64,000 bases of DNA from Erysipelotrichaceae bacterium (GTDB lineage Bacteria; Bacillota_I; Bacilli_A; Erysipelotrichales; Erysipelotrichaceae): NCBI GenBank assembly GCA_030694975.1, contig JAUYTU010000019.1, positions 62,001-126,000 of the forward strand, given 5' to 3'. A program made the position numbers and the translations under genes. Below the pieces are notes generated by a model, which was not told the DNA's origin, did no database searches, and was given only the letters and a program-made list of their open reading frames with translations. This document shows positions 29,325 to 45,101 of this stretch, one piece after another (the first letter of the stretch is position 1; each line of letters opens with the position of its first letter).

Positions 29325-29981
29325 ATGATCGCAAAAATTAGAAATTACATTCAACGGGCATTTGAAGATGTACCTAAAACCAAGAAGTCGACTGAGTTGC
29401 AAGAAGAACTGATCAGCAATCTGGTCGAGAAGTTTAATGATCAGTTAAGATTAGGAAAAACAGAAGAAGAAGCGTATCAGAACGTTATCGCCGGTATCGG
29501 TGATTTAAGTGAATTGACCGAAGGGTTGCGTGAACGTCACGTTCTATCCGCAATTACGCCGGCGGACCGTAAGAGAAGCGCAATGTTAACGGCTATCGCC
29601 GTCGGATTATTCATTATCAGTCCGATGATGGTCGTCATATTCTCTGAATTTGGCTTAGAAACAGTTGGCATCAGCATGATGTTTACCAGCATAGCCATCG
29701 GTGTAGGTCTGTTGATTTACAATGGTGCGTCGAAGCCGAAGTACATCCGAGAAGAAGAGACGTTGGTGGAAGAATTTAAAGAATGGAAATCAAAGAATAC
29801 AAAGAATCGTGCATTATATGGAGCGTTGGGAGCTGCTTACTGGCTGATCGTGGTCGCAACTTACTTATACATCAGCTTCAACTATGCATCCTTCCATTAT
29901 TCCTGGATTATATTTATTATTGCTGCCGCAGTCTATAACATTATCAAAGCTCTGTATTTGATGGGACAAAAAGATGAGTAG
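29325..29981 (+). CDS. Permease-prefix (DUF1700-like) membrane protein
   Basis: 218 residues. The first ~75 residues are charged and helical with the pattern of permease prefix/HAAS domains (IQRAFEDVPKTKKSTELQEELISNLVEKFNDQLRLGKTEEEAYQNVIAGIGDLSEL); four transmembrane helices follow (about 83-105, 110-131, 155-178, 183-205). Such proteins sit between PadR regulators and DUF4097 proteins and are thought to belong to membrane-stress responses. Overlaps the next gene by 8 bp. Confidence 0.8.
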   Translation: MIAKIRNYIQRAFEDVPKTKKSTELQEELISNLVEKFNDQLRLGKTEEEAYQNVIAGIGDLSELTEGLRERHVLSAITPADRKRSAMLTAIAVGLFIISPMMVVIFSEFGLETVGISMMFTSIAIGVGLLIYNGASKPKYIREEETLVEEFKEWKSKNTKNRALYGALGAAYWLIVVATYLYISFNYASFHYSWIIFIIAAAVYNIIKALYLMGQKDE

Positions 29982-30882
29982 ACGTACCGTAGCATTATTG
30001 ACCGCCGCCGTCTGGACATTCGTTCTAGCCGGTGCGCTGGCCATCTTCTTCATCTTCGCACAGGGCAGCAATCCATTTTCAAACTTCAACCCTGTTAAAG
30101 GGGATATGAGACAATTACAACAACAAACCGTTAACGACGATGTGACCTCGATTTCTATTGAGTGGATCGCCGGAGGCGTTCATGTTAAGAAAGCGACCGA
30201 TGGGAAGTTTCAATTAGTTGAGAAGTCGCAGTTTGATCTGGATAAGAAACAGTGGGCCGCAGTAACCGTGAATAACGGGCGACTCACGATCAAAAGCCGC
30301 ATCAAATCCATCTGGAATATCTTTACCTTCTTTACACCAAGCAGTTATCTAGAATTGTACTTACCAGAAAAACTTTATGACGAATTTGTTATGCAATCCA
30401 CTTCCGGTGAATATATCATTGAAGATTTACAAGCAAAATCGTTGAACTTAGAAGCAACTTCCGGAAACTTCGACATCTTGCGTACGACAACGGAGAAGAT
30501 GGTTATTGAAGTGACGAGTGGAGACTTGGATATCGATCAATCGACAACAGACTCTTTGCAATTGAAACTGACTTCCGGCGATGCATCGTATAACGGTGTG
30601 GTTCGTGACTCTTGGAAAGCGGAAATGACCAGCGGACGCATTCTTGCGAATTTGTTAGAGGTTGCTCCAGGGGATGTTGATGTTGAAATGACGTCCGGTT
30701 TAATCGAAATGACCTTTGTTAAAGAAGCGGACTTTGAAGTTCGTGTAGAGAAGACTTCGGGATTGTTTAATGCCAACTGGCCTAATGCAAATTCGAGTTC
30801 ACCCTACAGATATCAGACGGGTCGCGATGATTACAATGTATCCATGACTAGCGGTATTGTTACGTTCAATGTTCAACCTTAG
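29974..30882 (+). CDS. DUF4097 beta-helix-like protein
   Basis: 302 residues: N-terminal transmembrane anchor (residues 7-31), then an extracytoplasmic region made of repeated TSGxxxI/L units (MQSTSGEYIIEDLQAKSLNLEATSGNF and later copies) characteristic of DUF4097, a right-handed parallel beta-strand repeat domain. Role unknown, likely at the outer face of the membrane. Third gene of the PadR operon, closed by a terminator. Confidence 0.85.
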   Translation: MSRRTVALLTAAVWTFVLAGALAIFFIFAQGSNPFSNFNPVKGDMRQLQQQTVNDDVTSISIEWIAGGVHVKKATDGKFQLVEKSQFDLDKKQWAAVTVNNGRLTIKSRIKSIWNIFTFFTPSSYLELYLPEKLYDEFVMQSTSGEYIIEDLQAKSLNLEATSGNFDILRTTTEKMVIEVTSGDLDIDQSTTDSLQLKLTSGDASYNGVVRDSWKAEMTSGRILANLLEVAPGDVDVEMTSGLIEMTFVKEADFEVRVEKTSGLFNANWPNANSSSPYRYQTGRDDYNVSMTSGIVTFNVQP

Positions 30883-36160: not shown

Positions 36161-36598
36161 ATGTTACCAATTATCAAAAACATCAGTATTATCGAACGAT
36201 GCAACATACTATTCAGAAATGAAGCTTTCAGAAAATTTGATTTAAGTGGCTATCAATACAGTTATCTGATTGAAATATGTCGAAATCCGGGCATCTCTCA
36301 AGAACAGCTAACCAAAAACATGCACATTGACAAAAGTAATGTGGGTCGGGGATTGACATCGCTTTTGGAAAAAGATTACATCACGCGTCATACCAACCCA
36401 AGCGATAATCGCTATATACTGCTTTATCCCACCCAGAAAGCAACGTTGATTTACGATGAGCTACGCGAAATCATCATTCGCGAACGTACTTTTCTGATGG
36501 ATGAGTTTAGTGAAGAAGAAGAAAAACAACTTGTTGCTCTGCTTGAGAAACTGAAGAACAGAGCGCTGTTATTAAAAGAGTGGGGAGAAAATTTATGA
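36161..36598 (+). CDS. MarR family transcriptional regulator
   Basis: 145 residues from the ATG behind GGAGG. Winged-helix MarR protein: LIEICRNPGISQEQLTKNMHIDKSNVGRGLTSLLEKDYITRHTNPSDNRYILLYPTQKA with the DxRxxxxxLT-type wing. It likely represses the ABC exporter operon (genes overlapping by 4 bp) until an inhibitory compound binds, acting at the palindrome over the start site. Confidence 0.9.
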   Translation: MLPIIKNISIIERCNILFRNEAFRKFDLSGYQYSYLIEICRNPGISQEQLTKNMHIDKSNVGRGLTSLLEKDYITRHTNPSDNRYILLYPTQKATLIYDELREIIIRERTFLMDEFSEEEEKQLVALLEKLKNRALLLKEWGENL

Positions 36599-38313
36599 GG
36601 ATCGTATTGTCCTATTTAAATCCCTATAAATATAAGTTGATCGTCAATCTGCTCGTAAAAAGTGGAGCAACCTTAATGGAACTGTTTTTACCATGGTTAC
36701 TCGCCTATGTCATCGATACCATCATACCGCGGGAAGATGTTAGCGCTGTTATTTTCTTCGGTGTTCTGATGCTCATCAGTTCGGCCTTGGCATTTATTGG
36801 AAATGTTGTCGCCAATCGAATGGCCGCACGCATAGCGAGCGATGCCATCAAAACACTGCGCGATGACGGATACACCAAAATCATGAACTTCTCTAATCGC
36901 ACCGTCGATGAGTTTAAGATACCTTCATTGGTATCACGAATGACCACCGACACTTATCATATATACCGAATGTTCAACGTCGTACAGCGCATCGGCGTAC
37001 GCGCACCCATTTTATTAATCGGAAGTGTTTTTCTGATGATCATGATCGATTTGAACCTAGCCTTAGTACTCATCGCCTTAATGCCCCTGATCGTCGCTGT
37101 TATTTACTTTATCTCACGACGCGGCGTTCCATATTACAGCCAACTGCAAAAAGAGTTGGACAGTCTGATTCGAATCGTACGCGAAAACATCGCTGGCATC
37201 CGGGTCATTAAAGCATTGGCAAAAGAAAAAGATGAACAAGCGAAATTTGAGCAAGTCAATCTTGCGGTAAGTAAGAAAGAGCGCTCCGCTGGGTATGTCG
37301 TATCGATGCTCAACCCCATGATGAACCTGCTTCTTAATATGGGATTGATTATGATACTTTACTTCGGTGCGATCCGCGTCAGTCAAGGACTCAGCCAGAC
37401 CGGCAGTATCATTGCCTTTCTAACCTACTTTACGTTGATACTCATGTCCTTTATGGCACTCAACCGCATATTCTTAATGTACTCACGAGCCAACGCCTCC
37501 GCCCTTCGGATTGTGGAGATACTAAACAGAGAAGATGCTTTTGAAGTTATTGATGATCAATCACCGTACACAGAGATGCACTTAGAATTTCGAAATGTCG
37601 ACTTCTCTTACAATAAAACAAAAAATCACTTAGAAAACATCTCTTTTCAAATTCGACGCAATGAGACCTTTGGTATTATCGGTTCGACCGGAAGCGGAAA
37701 ATCAACGATTGCACAACTGCTCTTGCGATTCTACGATGTAGATAGAGGTCAGATTCTGATTAACGGAAAAGATATAAAATCGTATGACTTGAAAGAGTTG
37801 CGATCGATGTTTGGGGTCGTTCTTCAAAATGACGTGCTCTTCTCATCCACGGTATCCGACAATATCCGTTTTGGACGACATGTTGAAGATGAATCGCTGA
37901 TGGATGCGGCTGATATGGCACAAGCCACCGAATTCATCGATAAACTCCAAGATAAATATCAGCAGGAAGTTCTGCGTGGCGGAGCCAATTTCTCGGGCGG
38001 ACAACGCCAACGTATGCTCATTGCCCGAGCCTTGGCGGATCATCCGGAAGTTTTGATATTTGATGATGCATCCAGCGCTCTTGATTATAAAACAGACGCG
38101 ACATTACGCAATCGCTTACGCAAAAGCGGCATGTCTACCGTCATATTAATTGCCCAACGCGTATCAACGGTGTTAAATGCGGATAATATCATGGTTTTAG
38201 AAGAGGGACAAATCGTCGGCTTAGGAACCCATGAACTACTTGTTCGCGACTGCGATGTCTATCGCGAACTGGTCGAGTTGCAGTTAGGAGGTAAGGAATA
38301 TGTCAATGCCTAG
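36595..38313 (+). CDS. ABC exporter subunit with degenerate ATPase site
   Basis: 572 residues from the ATG behind GGGAG, overlapping marR by 4 bp. N-terminal six-helix exporter domain and C-terminal ATPase: Walker A GSTGSGKST near 363, signature FSGGQRQRM, Walker B VLIFDDASSALD, where the usual catalytic Glu is Asp, and LIAQRVSTV, where the H-loop His is Gln. It is therefore the half with the non-catalytic nucleotide site in a heterodimeric exporter (LmrCD/BmrCD/TM287-288 type). Likely exports drugs or lipids. Confidence 0.9.
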   Translation: MRIVLSYLNPYKYKLIVNLLVKSGATLMELFLPWLLAYVIDTIIPREDVSAVIFFGVLMLISSALAFIGNVVANRMAARIASDAIKTLRDDGYTKIMNFSNRTVDEFKIPSLVSRMTTDTYHIYRMFNVVQRIGVRAPILLIGSVFLMIMIDLNLALVLIALMPLIVAVIYFISRRGVPYYSQLQKELDSLIRIVRENIAGIRVIKALAKEKDEQAKFEQVNLAVSKKERSAGYVVSMLNPMMNLLLNMGLIMILYFGAIRVSQGLSQTGSIIAFLTYFTLILMSFMALNRIFLMYSRANASALRIVEILNREDAFEVIDDQSPYTEMHLEFRNVDFSYNKTKNHLENISFQIRRNETFGIIGSTGSGKSTIAQLLLRFYDVDRGQILINGKDIKSYDLKELRSMFGVVLQNDVLFSSTVSDNIRFGRHVEDESLMDAADMAQATEFIDKLQDKYQQEVLRGGANFSGGQRQRMLIARALADHPEVLIFDDASSALDYKTDATLRNRLRKSGMSTVILIAQRVSTVLNADNIMVLEEGQIVGLGTHELLVRDCDVYRELVELQLGGKEYVNA

Positions 38314-40090
38314 AGGCGGTGGCGGTCCGATTAGCGATGCTACGGACAAACCGCAAAACACAAAAGCGACACTGATGAAATTGATGAAGTATATCAAAGC
38401 TCAGCGCTGGCTGTTTGGATTGGCAATATTGCTCTCCATAATGGCCAATGCCCTTCAATTGATCGGCCCGTTTTTGACCGGTCAAATCATCGATTACATT
38501 CGATTGGGCGATTTCGTTGTTACCTGGCCCAAAATCCAACAAGTATTACTGTTGATGATCATCTTCTACGCTTTCTCAGCCGCAATGCTCTATGCCTTGC
38601 AAGTTCTGATGATTTATATATCCCAGCGCATCGTTGTCAGTATGCGCAAGGACTTATTTGAAAAATTCACCTCACTGCCGGTAAGTTACTTCGACCGACA
38701 CCAAATTGGCGATATGCTCAGTCGGATGTCCTATGATATTGACACCATCAATACATCCATGTCGTCCGATGTGGTTCAACTTTTCGGAAGTATCATTACA
38801 GTCGTCGGAGCGTTTGGCATGATGGCCTTTATCTCACCGCTGTTATTACTAATCTTTATCGTAACGATACCGGCATCCATCTTCACCACTCGGTATTTAG
38901 CCAAAAAGACACGACCTCTGTTTCGAATTCGTTCGCGAAAACTGGGTGATATGAATGGTTTTATCGAAGAAACGATTTCCGGTCAGAAAACCGTGAAAGC
39001 GTACAGCCAACAGGATAAGATGATTGAGGAATTTAAGGCAAAAAATCTCGATGCTTCAGAAGCTTATTATAAGGCGGACTACTACGGAAGTATGACCGGT
39101 CCGGCCATATCACTTATTAACAATATTTCAATGGCTTTGATCAGCTTGTTTGGATCATTGCTCTACTTATTTAAATACATTACCTTAGGAAACATCTCAT
39201 CTTTCTTACTCTACTCACGCAAATTCTCAGGTCCGATCAATGAAGCCGCCAACATCGTTGCGGAACTACAATCAACCTTAGCAGCTTCTGAGCGGGTCTT
39301 TCGAGTGTTGGAAAGTGAGAACGAGACCGAAGATTTGGTTACACAATTGTACCCGAAAACCGATACCGGCGAAGTTATTTTCGAACATGTCAACTTTGGT
39401 TATGTTAACGATATCCCGGTCATTAAGGACTTAAATCTGCATGTCAAGCCAGGCAGTGTCGTCGCTATCGTCGGTCAGACCGGCGCAGGCAAAACGACGA
39501 TGATCAATTTACTGATGCGCTTCTACGATGTGGACAGCGGGCGGATTTTGATTGACGGCATCGATATACACACGACCAAACGCAAAGACTTGCGCGAGCA
39601 GTTTGCAATGGTCCTTCAGGATTCGTGGTTGTTCTACGGATCGATTTACGAAAACATATCCTATGGACATCCCGATGCAACTCTCGAAGATGTCATTCGC
39701 ATTGCCAAAGAAGTGAATATTCACCATTTTATTGAGCGATTACCGTTGGGTTATGATACCATTATTACAGATGACGGCATCAATATTTCCAAAGGTCAAA
39801 AACAGTTGATTACCATTGGTCGGGCGATGCTTCAAGATCGCAAGATGATCATTCTTGATGAAGCTACCAGCAATGTGGATACGCGCACGGAAATGAAAAT
39901 TCAAAAGGCGATGCGCAAGCTGATGCAAGGGAAGACCTGCTTTGTGATTGCCCATCGATTGAGTACCATTAAAAATGCGGATGTGATTTTGGTGGTTGAT
40001 GATGGTAACATTGTTGAAAAGGGAACCCATGAGTCACTGATGGAAGAAAAAGGCTTTTATTATCAAATGTTCATGTCTCAATTTGAGTAG
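38300..40090 (+). CDS. ABC exporter subunit with canonical ATPase site
   Basis: 596 residues, starting 14 bp before the previous stop behind AGGAGG. Six-helix domain and ATPase with Walker A GQTGAGKTTM, Walker B MIILDEATSNVD (Glu kept) and H-loop VIAHRLSTI, but an altered signature ISKGQKQL. Paired with the previous subunit, its Walker sites and the partner's FSGGQ form the consensus site, and the ISKGQ/Asp/Gln set forms the degenerate one. Longer N-terminus, rich in Gly, is typical of the larger half. Confidence 0.93.
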   Translation: MSMPRGGGGPISDATDKPQNTKATLMKLMKYIKAQRWLFGLAILLSIMANALQLIGPFLTGQIIDYIRLGDFVVTWPKIQQVLLLMIIFYAFSAAMLYALQVLMIYISQRIVVSMRKDLFEKFTSLPVSYFDRHQIGDMLSRMSYDIDTINTSMSSDVVQLFGSIITVVGAFGMMAFISPLLLLIFIVTIPASIFTTRYLAKKTRPLFRIRSRKLGDMNGFIEETISGQKTVKAYSQQDKMIEEFKAKNLDASEAYYKADYYGSMTGPAISLINNISMALISLFGSLLYLFKYITLGNISSFLLYSRKFSGPINEAANIVAELQSTLAASERVFRVLESENETEDLVTQLYPKTDTGEVIFEHVNFGYVNDIPVIKDLNLHVKPGSVVAIVGQTGAGKTTMINLLMRFYDVDSGRILIDGIDIHTTKRKDLREQFAMVLQDSWLFYGSIYENISYGHPDATLEDVIRIAKEVNIHHFIERLPLGYDTIITDDGINISKGQKQLITIGRAMLQDRKMIILDEATSNVDTRTEMKIQKAMRKLMQGKTCFVIAHRLSTIKNADVILVVDDGNIVEKGTHESLMEEKGFYYQMFMSQFE

Positions 40091-43576: not shown

Positions 43577-43648
43577 ATTAAATTCACCTTACATTTAATT
43601 ATTAAATAAATAAAATTAATATAATAGTTAAATATATTAATATATCTA

Positions 43649-43676
43649 TTGACATATAGAAAAAATGAGTTAAACT
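43649..43676 (+). promoter_or_regulatory. Promoter of the DUF2089/mini-protein operon
   Basis: TTGACA at 43649-43654, 16 bp, TAAACT at 43671-43676. Confidence 0.65.
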
Positions 43677-43693: not shown

Positions 43694-43972
43694 ATGGCAA
43701 GCAAAATCAAGATTATGATTCAGACGGAAGACACCAATATTAACCTTCCATCCATTGGATTCGGGGTTGCACTCACGTTTATGCGCTTCGGTCTATGGAC
43801 TACAAAATTTGTAAAAAACATGGATGAAAAAACACAGCGATATTTGAAGGAGAATAAATCAACAATCATCAAGATGATGAAAGAAATATTCGCAGAGCTC
43901 AAAACGATGGAGCCATTCACGCTGGTTGAAGTTAAGTCCGAAGATGCTTATGTATTGATTGACATCCGATAG
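43694..43972 (+). CDS. Small protein sharing a domain with the YvlB-like protein
   Basis: 92 residues behind GAGGTGAAGG. It opens SKIKIMIQTEDTNINLPSIGFGVALTFMRFGL and ends PFTLVEVKSEDAYVLIDIR. Both ends resemble the second half of the last protein of this operon (RKMLRVTVDSAKGDVVRINVPTSLVKAGL ... GEIVNVESAEGDVVKIFID), so I infer one domain in two copies. I do not recognise a known function. First gene of a five-gene unit. Confidence 0.65.
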   Translation: MASKIKIMIQTEDTNINLPSIGFGVALTFMRFGLWTTKFVKNMDEKTQRYLKENKSTIIKMMKEIFAELKTMEPFTLVEVKSEDAYVLIDIR

Positions 43973-43983
43973 GAGGAATAAAT

Positions 43984-44343
43984 ATGAAAAAAGAAGTATT
44001 TGGAACTTGTCCCGTTTGTGGCGGATCCCTGTTATGCACAAAGCTTTCGTGCCATACATGCAATACCGAAATTACCGGTGAGTTTGCATTGTCTCGTTTC
44101 AGTTATCTGTCAAAAGAAGAGTTGTATTTTGTAGAAACGTTTGTCCGTGTCCAAGGCAATATCAAAGAGATGGAACGTGAATTAGAAATCTCGTATCCGA
44201 CGGTTAAGAAGAATTTGGATTCTATCATTGCGAAAATGGGGTTTAGCGTATCAAGACCGAAGGTCAATGAAGACGAAGTCCTGGCAAAGATTAAGTCCGG
44301 TGAAATGACAGTCGAAGAAGCTTTGGCTTTCATTAAGAAATAA
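43984..44343 (+). CDS. DUF2089 zinc-ribbon regulator-like protein
   Basis: 119 residues. Two Cys pairs at the N-terminus (CPVCGGSLLCTKLSCHTCNTEITGEF) form a zinc ribbon, followed by YFVETFVRVQGNIKEMERELEISYPTVKKNLDSIIAKMG, a helix-turn-helix-like DUF2089 segment, and a SHOCT-like tail (DEVLAKIKSGEMTVEEALAFIKK). It could be the DNA-binding regulator of the operon, by inference. Starts 11 bp after the first gene. Confidence 0.8.
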   Translation: MKKEVFGTCPVCGGSLLCTKLSCHTCNTEITGEFALSRFSYLSKEELYFVETFVRVQGNIKEMERELEISYPTVKKNLDSIIAKMGFSVSRPKVNEDEVLAKIKSGEMTVEEALAFIKK

Positions 44344-44361: not shown

Positions 44362-44502
44362 ATGAAAAAGCGGAACTTTTCCAACATCATCTACAGGTTA
44401 CTGCCCCATTTATCATTGTTTGAAGATGGTTCAGTGATCAATGACCGCTATGTTACGTATCAGTGCACACTGAATGAAGTCGTTAACCGACTAAGTCAGT
44501 AA
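44362..44502 (+). CDS. 46-residue mini-protein A
   Basis: 46 residues behind GAGGTGAGG. Core: PHLSLFEDGSVINDRYV then YQCTLNEVVNRLSQ, with a basic N-terminus (MKKRNF) and hydrophobic middle. It matches the next gene product position by position (EDGS.I.DRYV.YQCTL..VV.RLS), so it is a genuine translated gene and a tandem duplicate. No family known to me. The strong coding-like conservation, good RBS and operon position support it. Confidence 0.8.
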   Translation: MKKRNFSNIIYRLLPHLSLFEDGSVINDRYVTYQCTLNEVVNRLSQ

Positions 44503-44518
44503 ACAAGAGGTGAAAGTT

Positions 44519-44659
44519 ATGTTAAAAAAGAAATTATCAAGATTCATATTCGTCATGTTCCCCCATCTGCTCATTATTGAAGATGGTTCGATCATTAGTG
44601 ACCGATATGTTAATTACCAATGTACCCTGACCGATGTGGTCGATCGTTTAAGCAAATAA
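44519..44659 (+). CDS. 46-residue mini-protein B, paralogue of A
   Basis: 46 residues behind AAGAGGTG, same length as mini-protein A. Core: PHLLIIEDGSIISDRYV then YQCTLTDVVDRLSK. Differences from A are mostly conservative, and a basic N-terminus (MLKKKLSR) and Pro-His are kept. Synonymous drift in the shared part suggests an older duplication under selection. Function unknown. Confidence 0.8.
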   Translation: MLKKKLSRFIFVMFPHLLIIEDGSIISDRYVNYQCTLTDVVDRLSK

Positions 44660-44682: not shown

Positions 44683-45072
44683 ATGAACTCAAAAGAACAA
44701 ATTTTACAAATGGTTAAAGAAGGCACGATAACTGTTGAAGATGGTATCAAATTATTAGAAGCGCTAGGTACACAAGGTGCTCAAACGCATTCGGTTCAGC
44801 CGGTGATAAACGTGAATCCGGCGGGTGGCAGAAAAATGTTGAGAGTCACCGTGGATAGTGCTAAAGGCGATGTTGTTCGAATCAATGTTCCGACATCGTT
44901 GGTCAAAGCCGGTCTCAACTTGTCCAATCAATTGAAAATCGACGGTAATCCCGTAGATATGAAGGGTGTCGATGTTGATATGATCATGGCGGCCATCGAA
45001 GAAGGCGCGACCGGTGAAATCGTCAATGTTGAATCCGCCGAAGGCGATGTCGTAAAAATCTTCATAGACTAA
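44683..45072 (+). CDS. SHOCT-like domain protein (YvlB-like)
   Basis: 129 residues. An N-terminal SHOCT-like helical hairpin (KEQILQMVKEGTITVEDGIKLLEAL) is followed by a low-complexity link and a C-terminal domain RKMLRVTVDSAKGDVVRINVPTSLV ending VVKIFID. Similar fused proteins occur beside DUF2089 and DUF4097 proteins of the YvlAB type, linked to envelope stress. The C-terminal domain resembles the first gene of this operon. Confidence 0.75.
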   Translation: MNSKEQILQMVKEGTITVEDGIKLLEALGTQGAQTHSVQPVINVNPAGGRKMLRVTVDSAKGDVVRINVPTSLVKAGLNLSNQLKIDGNPVDMKGVDVDMIMAAIEEGATGEIVNVESAEGDVVKIFID

Positions 45073-45076
45073 AGAA

Positions 45077-45101
45077 AGAAGGCAAGTTAGCCTTCTTTTT
45101 C
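45077..45101. terminator. Bidirectional terminator
   Basis: AGAAGGC-AAGTTA-GCCTTCT with T run; it separates the mini-protein operon from convergent ohrR and overlaps its last codons. Confidence 0.8.

Follow-up and report, generated by a model that had tools for sequence, protein, structure and literature searches.

Two adjacent genes of 46 codons each, located in a 64,000-nucleotide stretch of DNA from an Erysipelotrichaceae bacterium (the whole of which is referred to here as the window), appear to represent an undescribed family of small paralogous proteins that so far is found only in a few Erysipelotrichaceae bacteria. The two encoded proteins (hereafter mini 1 and mini 2, or the minis) are an accessory, optional part of a compact, co-directional five-gene unit whose order is 92-aa gene, DUF2089, mini 1, mini 2, and 129-aa gene. 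The best reading, to which a probability of roughly 40% is assigned, regards the minis as small proteins accessory to a DUF2089/SHOCT-like module, which they would tune by binding its regulator or its partner. The observations on which this reading draws are coding conservation, fixed linkage, optional presence, a recurrent slot for small genes, and common phased sites upstream. The features of the locus are as follows.

43594..43641, no strand assigned: candidate operator of DUF2089, made up of ATYRAT half-sites spaced by 21 bp (43594, 43615, and 43636)
43649..43676, + strand: promoter-like site (TTGACA, 16 nt, TAAACT), a consensus match only, conserved in genera g1 and g59
43694..43972, + strand: 92-aa protein, probably related by profile comparison to the C-terminal domain found in the 129-aa protein
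43984..44343, + strand: DUF2089 regulator with zinc ribbon (PF22747) and HTH (PF09862) by Pfam
44362..44502, + strand: mini 1, 46 aa, ATG start, ORF with Shine-Dalgarno sequence
44519..44659, + strand: mini 2, 46 aa, ATG start, ORF with Shine-Dalgarno sequence
44683..45072, + strand: 129-aa protein with an N-terminal SHOCT-like_DUF2089-C domain (PF22746) by Pfam and profile comparison
45075..45098, no strand assigned (the scan lists the - strand): terminator-like inverted repeat that has T-runs and separates the unit from a convergent MarR gene

The five-gene unit described in the first-pass annotation of this DNA is real; a TTGACA -35-like site lies upstream of it and the inverted repeat with T-runs past its last gene. 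That annotation placed the minis between DUF2089 and a "YvlB-like" protein; the former neighbor was identified correctly (PF22747 at 46.3 bits and PF09862 at 78.9 bits, both above cut-off), whereas the latter carries PF22746 (38.3 bits against a cut-off of 27) and has no match to DUF4097 (Toastrack) in Pfam. Judged by this domain content, the unit is therefore a DUF2089/SHOCT-like module, which is a known kind of operon, rather than a YvlAB system. Operons of DUF2089 (zinc ribbon-HTH-SHOCT-like) were described in 2024 among Toastrack/PSP-like and envelope-stress contexts (PMC11237479). Like those, the unit examined here is a small operon that combines a DUF2089 regulator with SHOCT-like partners, and PF09862, PF22747, and PF22746 are all encountered in it; unlike those, it includes two added 46-aa proteins, and no Toastrack, PspC, or LiaI-LiaF-TM partner was detected with Pfam within the five genes. 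A DUF4097 gene (29974-30882) is located ~13 kb upstream of the five genes, where a 218-aa membrane protein of HAAS-type appearance (no Pfam match) precedes the Toastrack DUF4097 protein (E 1e-29; 29325-30882 for the two). An ABC exporter pair (36580-40090) is found ~4 kb upstream, beside its own MarR gene; it is also present in G258 and absent in g59. As regards LiaX/YvlB, the 129-aa protein matches positions 1-39 of the LiaX model with its SHOCT-like region, at a score far below cut-off (E 7e-4), but it comprises 129 residues as compared to the 512 positions of that model and is without a DUF4097 match, and none of the neighboring genes that were examined is a LiaFSR gene.

The first and last proteins of the operon were also said to share a domain, and profile comparison upholds this, although the relationship is significant only when diverse sequences are used. 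Comparison by hhalign of 15 and 14 fairly close sequences found no relation, whereas broader sets from across the class, 46 proteins for the upstream and 72 for the downstream gene, matched with a probability of 95.5% (P 1.4e-8) over the downstream C-terminal domain. Further, the N-terminal SHOCT-like part of the downstream proteins matched the N-terminal part of upstream proteins from other families (84.7%, P 7e-6). The 92-aa protein in this lineage is without that N-terminal part, and searches of Pfam, NCBIfam, and PHROGs with it returned nothing significant.

The two mini genes are of the same length, as noted in the first-pass annotation, are separated by a spacer of 16 nt, and show identities of 57% at the protein level and 62% at the DNA level. 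When mini 1 was used as a query against its own genome, mini 2 was the sole match (E 6e-14). The motif EDGS.I.DRYV.YQCTL..VV.RLS makes up a C-terminal half that is common to both, while the N-terminal halves are divergent; six residues (S7, L17, D22, G23, Y30, and Y33) are invariant in 13 of 13 aligned mini sequences. Within the genus (this genome versus G258 and G259), orthologues of mini 1 have a dN/dS of 0.12-0.15 and those of mini 2 of ~0.03, and dN between mini 1 and mini 2 in this genome is 0.32 with synonymous sites saturated. Both genes are under purifying selection, as had been proposed, and this selection, together with the ribosome-binding sites, suggests that both are translated. 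Among paralogues in g1, dN is 0.10-0.15 for residues 21-46 versus 0.59-0.70 for residues 1-20; in g59, it is the C-terminal half of mini 2 that has diverged. Mini 2 has a hydrophobic N-terminal half (GRAVY +1.16) with a lysine cluster ahead of it, and the N-terminal half of mini 1 is not hydrophobic (GRAVY 0.01); no segment of transmembrane length is predicted in either. The charge of the minis is +1.6 in this genome and negative in G266, and tryptophan is absent. AlphaFold models of both are of low confidence (pLDDT 58.8 and 54.9).

When 273 genomes of the family were searched with a profile, the pair was recovered in seven genomes from two genera, g1 (this genome, G257, G258, and G259) and g59 (G264, G266, and G267), such that homologues exist in six genomes besides the one first annotated. 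The linkage with DUF2089 and SHOCT-like genes is conserved: in all seven, the pair lies between DUF2089 and the 129-aa gene, with copy 2 only just begun in G257, where the contig stops 43 bp past mini 1. This contig end is shared by two contigs of one MAG (L032 and L033), both of which stop 43 nt past the last codon of mini 1 and which differ by one base in mini 1; they probably represent variants of the strain, which would have interrupted the assembly at this point. The flanks of the unit differ between the genera, with a HAD hydrolase and MarR/GPx in g1 and genes of fatty-acid synthesis and biotin ligase as well as an M48 protease in g59. Additionally, G260, which is placed in g1, encodes the 92-aa, DUF2089, and 128-aa genes with a 9-nt gap and no minis. 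Since the operon thus occurs within the genus even where the pair is missing, the pair is an accessory part of it.

Wider searches did not extend this distribution. No further pair was found in 316 genomes of the order, where the only two extra matches were rejected as chance since they fall inside a 410-residue YD-repeat-like protein, nor in 395 genomes sampled evenly across the class, where weak HMM matches (E 0.001-0.01) were likewise rejected as short fragments, several with in-frame stops. A pattern scan of 84,980 GTDB species genomes, made with strict peptide patterns that would miss distant relatives, added no lineage to those already found; its matches were to Erysipelotrichaceae bacterium UBA2227 (two contigs), HGW-Firmicutes-19, HGW-Firmicutes-10, UBA6182, Erysipelotrichia CROMO_A_155, and Erysipelothrix sp. 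CROMO_A_142. No relatives were found among plasmids, phages, or IMG/VR viral contigs. The view that the minis form a new small family is in keeping with the lack of any significant match in Pfam, NCBIfam, PHROG, and PDB. In particular, PF22746 was not matched by any of 12 members, and comparison of the minis to SHOCT-like domains with hhalign was not significant (P 0.014, probability 3%).

The history of the operon in the two genera is less straightforward. DUF2089 (43984-44343; loci L060, L061, L064, and L079) is ~95% identical between g1 and g59, though the two are widely separated by FabF (63-64%) and trigger factor (52-54%), and the DUF2089 of G260, from within g1, is just 75% identical. 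It was considered whether the five-gene block had moved horizontally between the two genera, as these identities would favor; against this, synonymous sites are saturated, the ratio of between-genus to within-genus divergence of the operon genes is roughly equal to that of FabF, and the trigger-factor tree does not fix the order of g1, g59, and G260. Transfer, replacement in G260, and strong constraint are all possible accounts of the DUF2089 history.

The position occupied by the minis was surveyed in 72 DUF2089 to SHOCT-like operons from genomes of the family and the class. The gap between the two genes is at most 58 nt in 50 of these operons and 112-340 nt in the other 22. For gaps of more than 100 nt, ORFs that were 34 aa or longer and had a strong Shine-Dalgarno sequence were counted, with the expectation derived from dinucleotide shuffles; such a small ORF was present in 20 of the 22 gapped operons (0.82 expected), and in 14 of 16 (about 0.26 expected) once the six operons of the mini family were set aside. 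The 72 loci are not independent, and the number of lineages (about five) therefore carries more weight than the number of loci. The ORFs that fill this slot are of about five unlike kinds: the 46-aa pair described here; a 39-aa ORF in g57 (L071, L072, and L073); nine Tyr/Lys/Glu-rich and barely alignable ORFs of 34-38 aa in family f14 (L156, L162, L165, L179, L180, L184, L189, L194, and L215); a 61-aa stand-alone SHOCT-like protein at L144 (PF22746, E 1.2e-8) with the same domain as the partner gene; and ORFs of 44-45 aa in g119 (L145, L146, and L149), where two of the three satisfy the Shine-Dalgarno test only in a less strict form. The optional nature of the pair and the filling of its slot by dissimilar small ORFs in other lineages both go beyond what the first-pass annotation had described. 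That the slot is a general site in this bacterial class for unrelated, lineage-specific regulatory micro-proteins with fast turnover, each tuning a regulator that acts through ATYRAT sites phased by 21 bp on its own operon and on a drug-type exporter, is a broader proposition and a doubtful one.

The phased sites in question were detected by scanning 140 nt of sequence ahead of the first gene for ATYRAT matched at no fewer than five of six positions. Pairs of sites spaced by 21 bp numbered 67 versus 6.7 in 19 Erysipelotrichaceae operons and 68 versus 8.8 in 28 operons from other families, such that z is about 18 in each of these two separate sets (47 operons together); side peaks of spacing occur at 9, 12, 30, 33, and 42 bp. 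AT-rich control stretches, from the final set of which operon upstream regions were excluded, hold 0.30 pairs per 140 nt compared to about 2.9 upstream of the operons. Chains of ATYRAT at 21 bp also occur in coding DNA (seven within the window at a loose threshold), 21 being a multiple of 3, and only non-coding arrays are therefore taken as candidate operators. The pattern suggests that DUF2089 binds the phased ATYRAT sites, which would make the arrays its candidate operator. The best match in this genome outside the operon is a phased run in the region (G000:C4:46630-46677) upstream of a TIGR00900/Mef-type MFS gene, and this Mef-like exporter is the predicted outside target. The MFS gene is preceded by 21-bp phasing in four genomes (this genome, G259, G261, and G252, the protein of the last being 47% identical), and the DUF2089 operon of G260 is immediately followed by an MFS gene that belongs to the same broad type (21% identity, E 8e-16). 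L232, around 1480-1530, is among the places where phased sites were noted.

In the reading in which the minis tune the module, their expression, binding, and effect might be envisaged as follows. The minis would be made together with the DUF2089 regulator and would bind either it or its SHOCT-like partner. The C-terminal half that they have in common could be the contact surface of both, and the divergent N-terminal halves could give each copy a separate role, for example in membrane contact. By tuning assembly of the regulator on the phased operator, the minis would influence control of their own operon and of the exporter, and fast turnover of such tuning partners might underlie the recurrence of unlike small ORFs in the slot. 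The fixed place of the pair in two genera, purifying selection, the excess in the slot, and the phased upstream sites were counted in favor of tuning, as was the filler at L144, which is itself SHOCT-like. Counted against it are the lack of significant SHOCT-like similarity of the minis, their low-confidence models, and the fact that G260 manages without the pair; moreover, a contact surface common to both minis fails in g59 because the C-terminal half of mini 2 has diverged there. Absence from G260 was also counted in favor of a protein function apart from DUF2089, with the minis residing in the operon for co-expression only. This is considered unlikely, as the pair keeps its slot in two genera despite different flanks and other small ORFs recur at that position. 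It is rather unlikely, too, that the minis are envelope effectors, that is, small peripheral membrane proteins made on the command of DUF2089 that act at the membrane during stress and have no regulatory role. The hydrophobic N-terminal half of mini 2 with lysines in front of it and the link to membrane stress proposed for DUF2089/SHOCT operons (PMC11237479) would suit such a role, but a segment of transmembrane length is not predicted, mini 1 is not hydrophobic in this region, and it is the C-terminal half that is better conserved in g1.

Serious consideration was given to a leaderless two-peptide bacteriocin, of which enterocin DD14 and L50, tandem paralogues with a DUF2089 gene in their clusters, are examples. 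DUF2089 proteins are encoded in leaderless bacteriocin clusters, those for enterocin DD14, bawcin, and thucin among them (PMC7332713, PMC10707071, PMC9484092), and the size and tandem paralogy of the minis fit. This reading nevertheless fails on charge, export genes, and type of DUF2089, and is regarded as very improbable. The charge is low or negative and tryptophan is missing; ABC/HlyD export or PH-domain genes are not beside the unit in g59 (L036, L037, and L038); and the DUF2089 proteins of the bacteriocin clusters are 89-98 aa in length, which is the size of a short type without zinc ribbon that is encoded elsewhere in this genome. Nor do the strict conservation across species, with acidic and tyrosine positions strongly conserved, the chromosomal location outside the plasmids and phages searched, and the lack of similarity to any solved protein favor a bacteriocin. 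Equally improbable is that the minis are translated leader peptides that matter by coupling the translation of the 129-aa gene or controlling its mRNA rather than as proteins: the tight packing and strong ribosome-binding sites would agree with it, but conservation is at the level of amino acids with synonymous sites saturated in g1-g59 comparisons, and operons such as that of G260 manage without the minis.

In the literature searched, DUF2089 is named in no title or abstract and is mentioned in running text only, COG3877 and PF09862 are not mentioned, and nothing on the mini family, the slot pattern, or the phased sites came up, although absence there is no proof of absence. DUF2089 proteins are widespread and essentially unstudied. 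The conserved family of accessory micro-proteins, the recurrent slot, and the predicted operator with one outside target supply testable handles and, if the proposed reading is true, the function of a large orphan family of regulators would become directly testable. A second, short DUF2089 without zinc ribbon is encoded at L085:2541-2855 on the - strand (G000, contig 30), and also at L086 and L087; it is followed by small membrane-like proteins and flanked by genes like those of ribosomal proteins L1 and L10.
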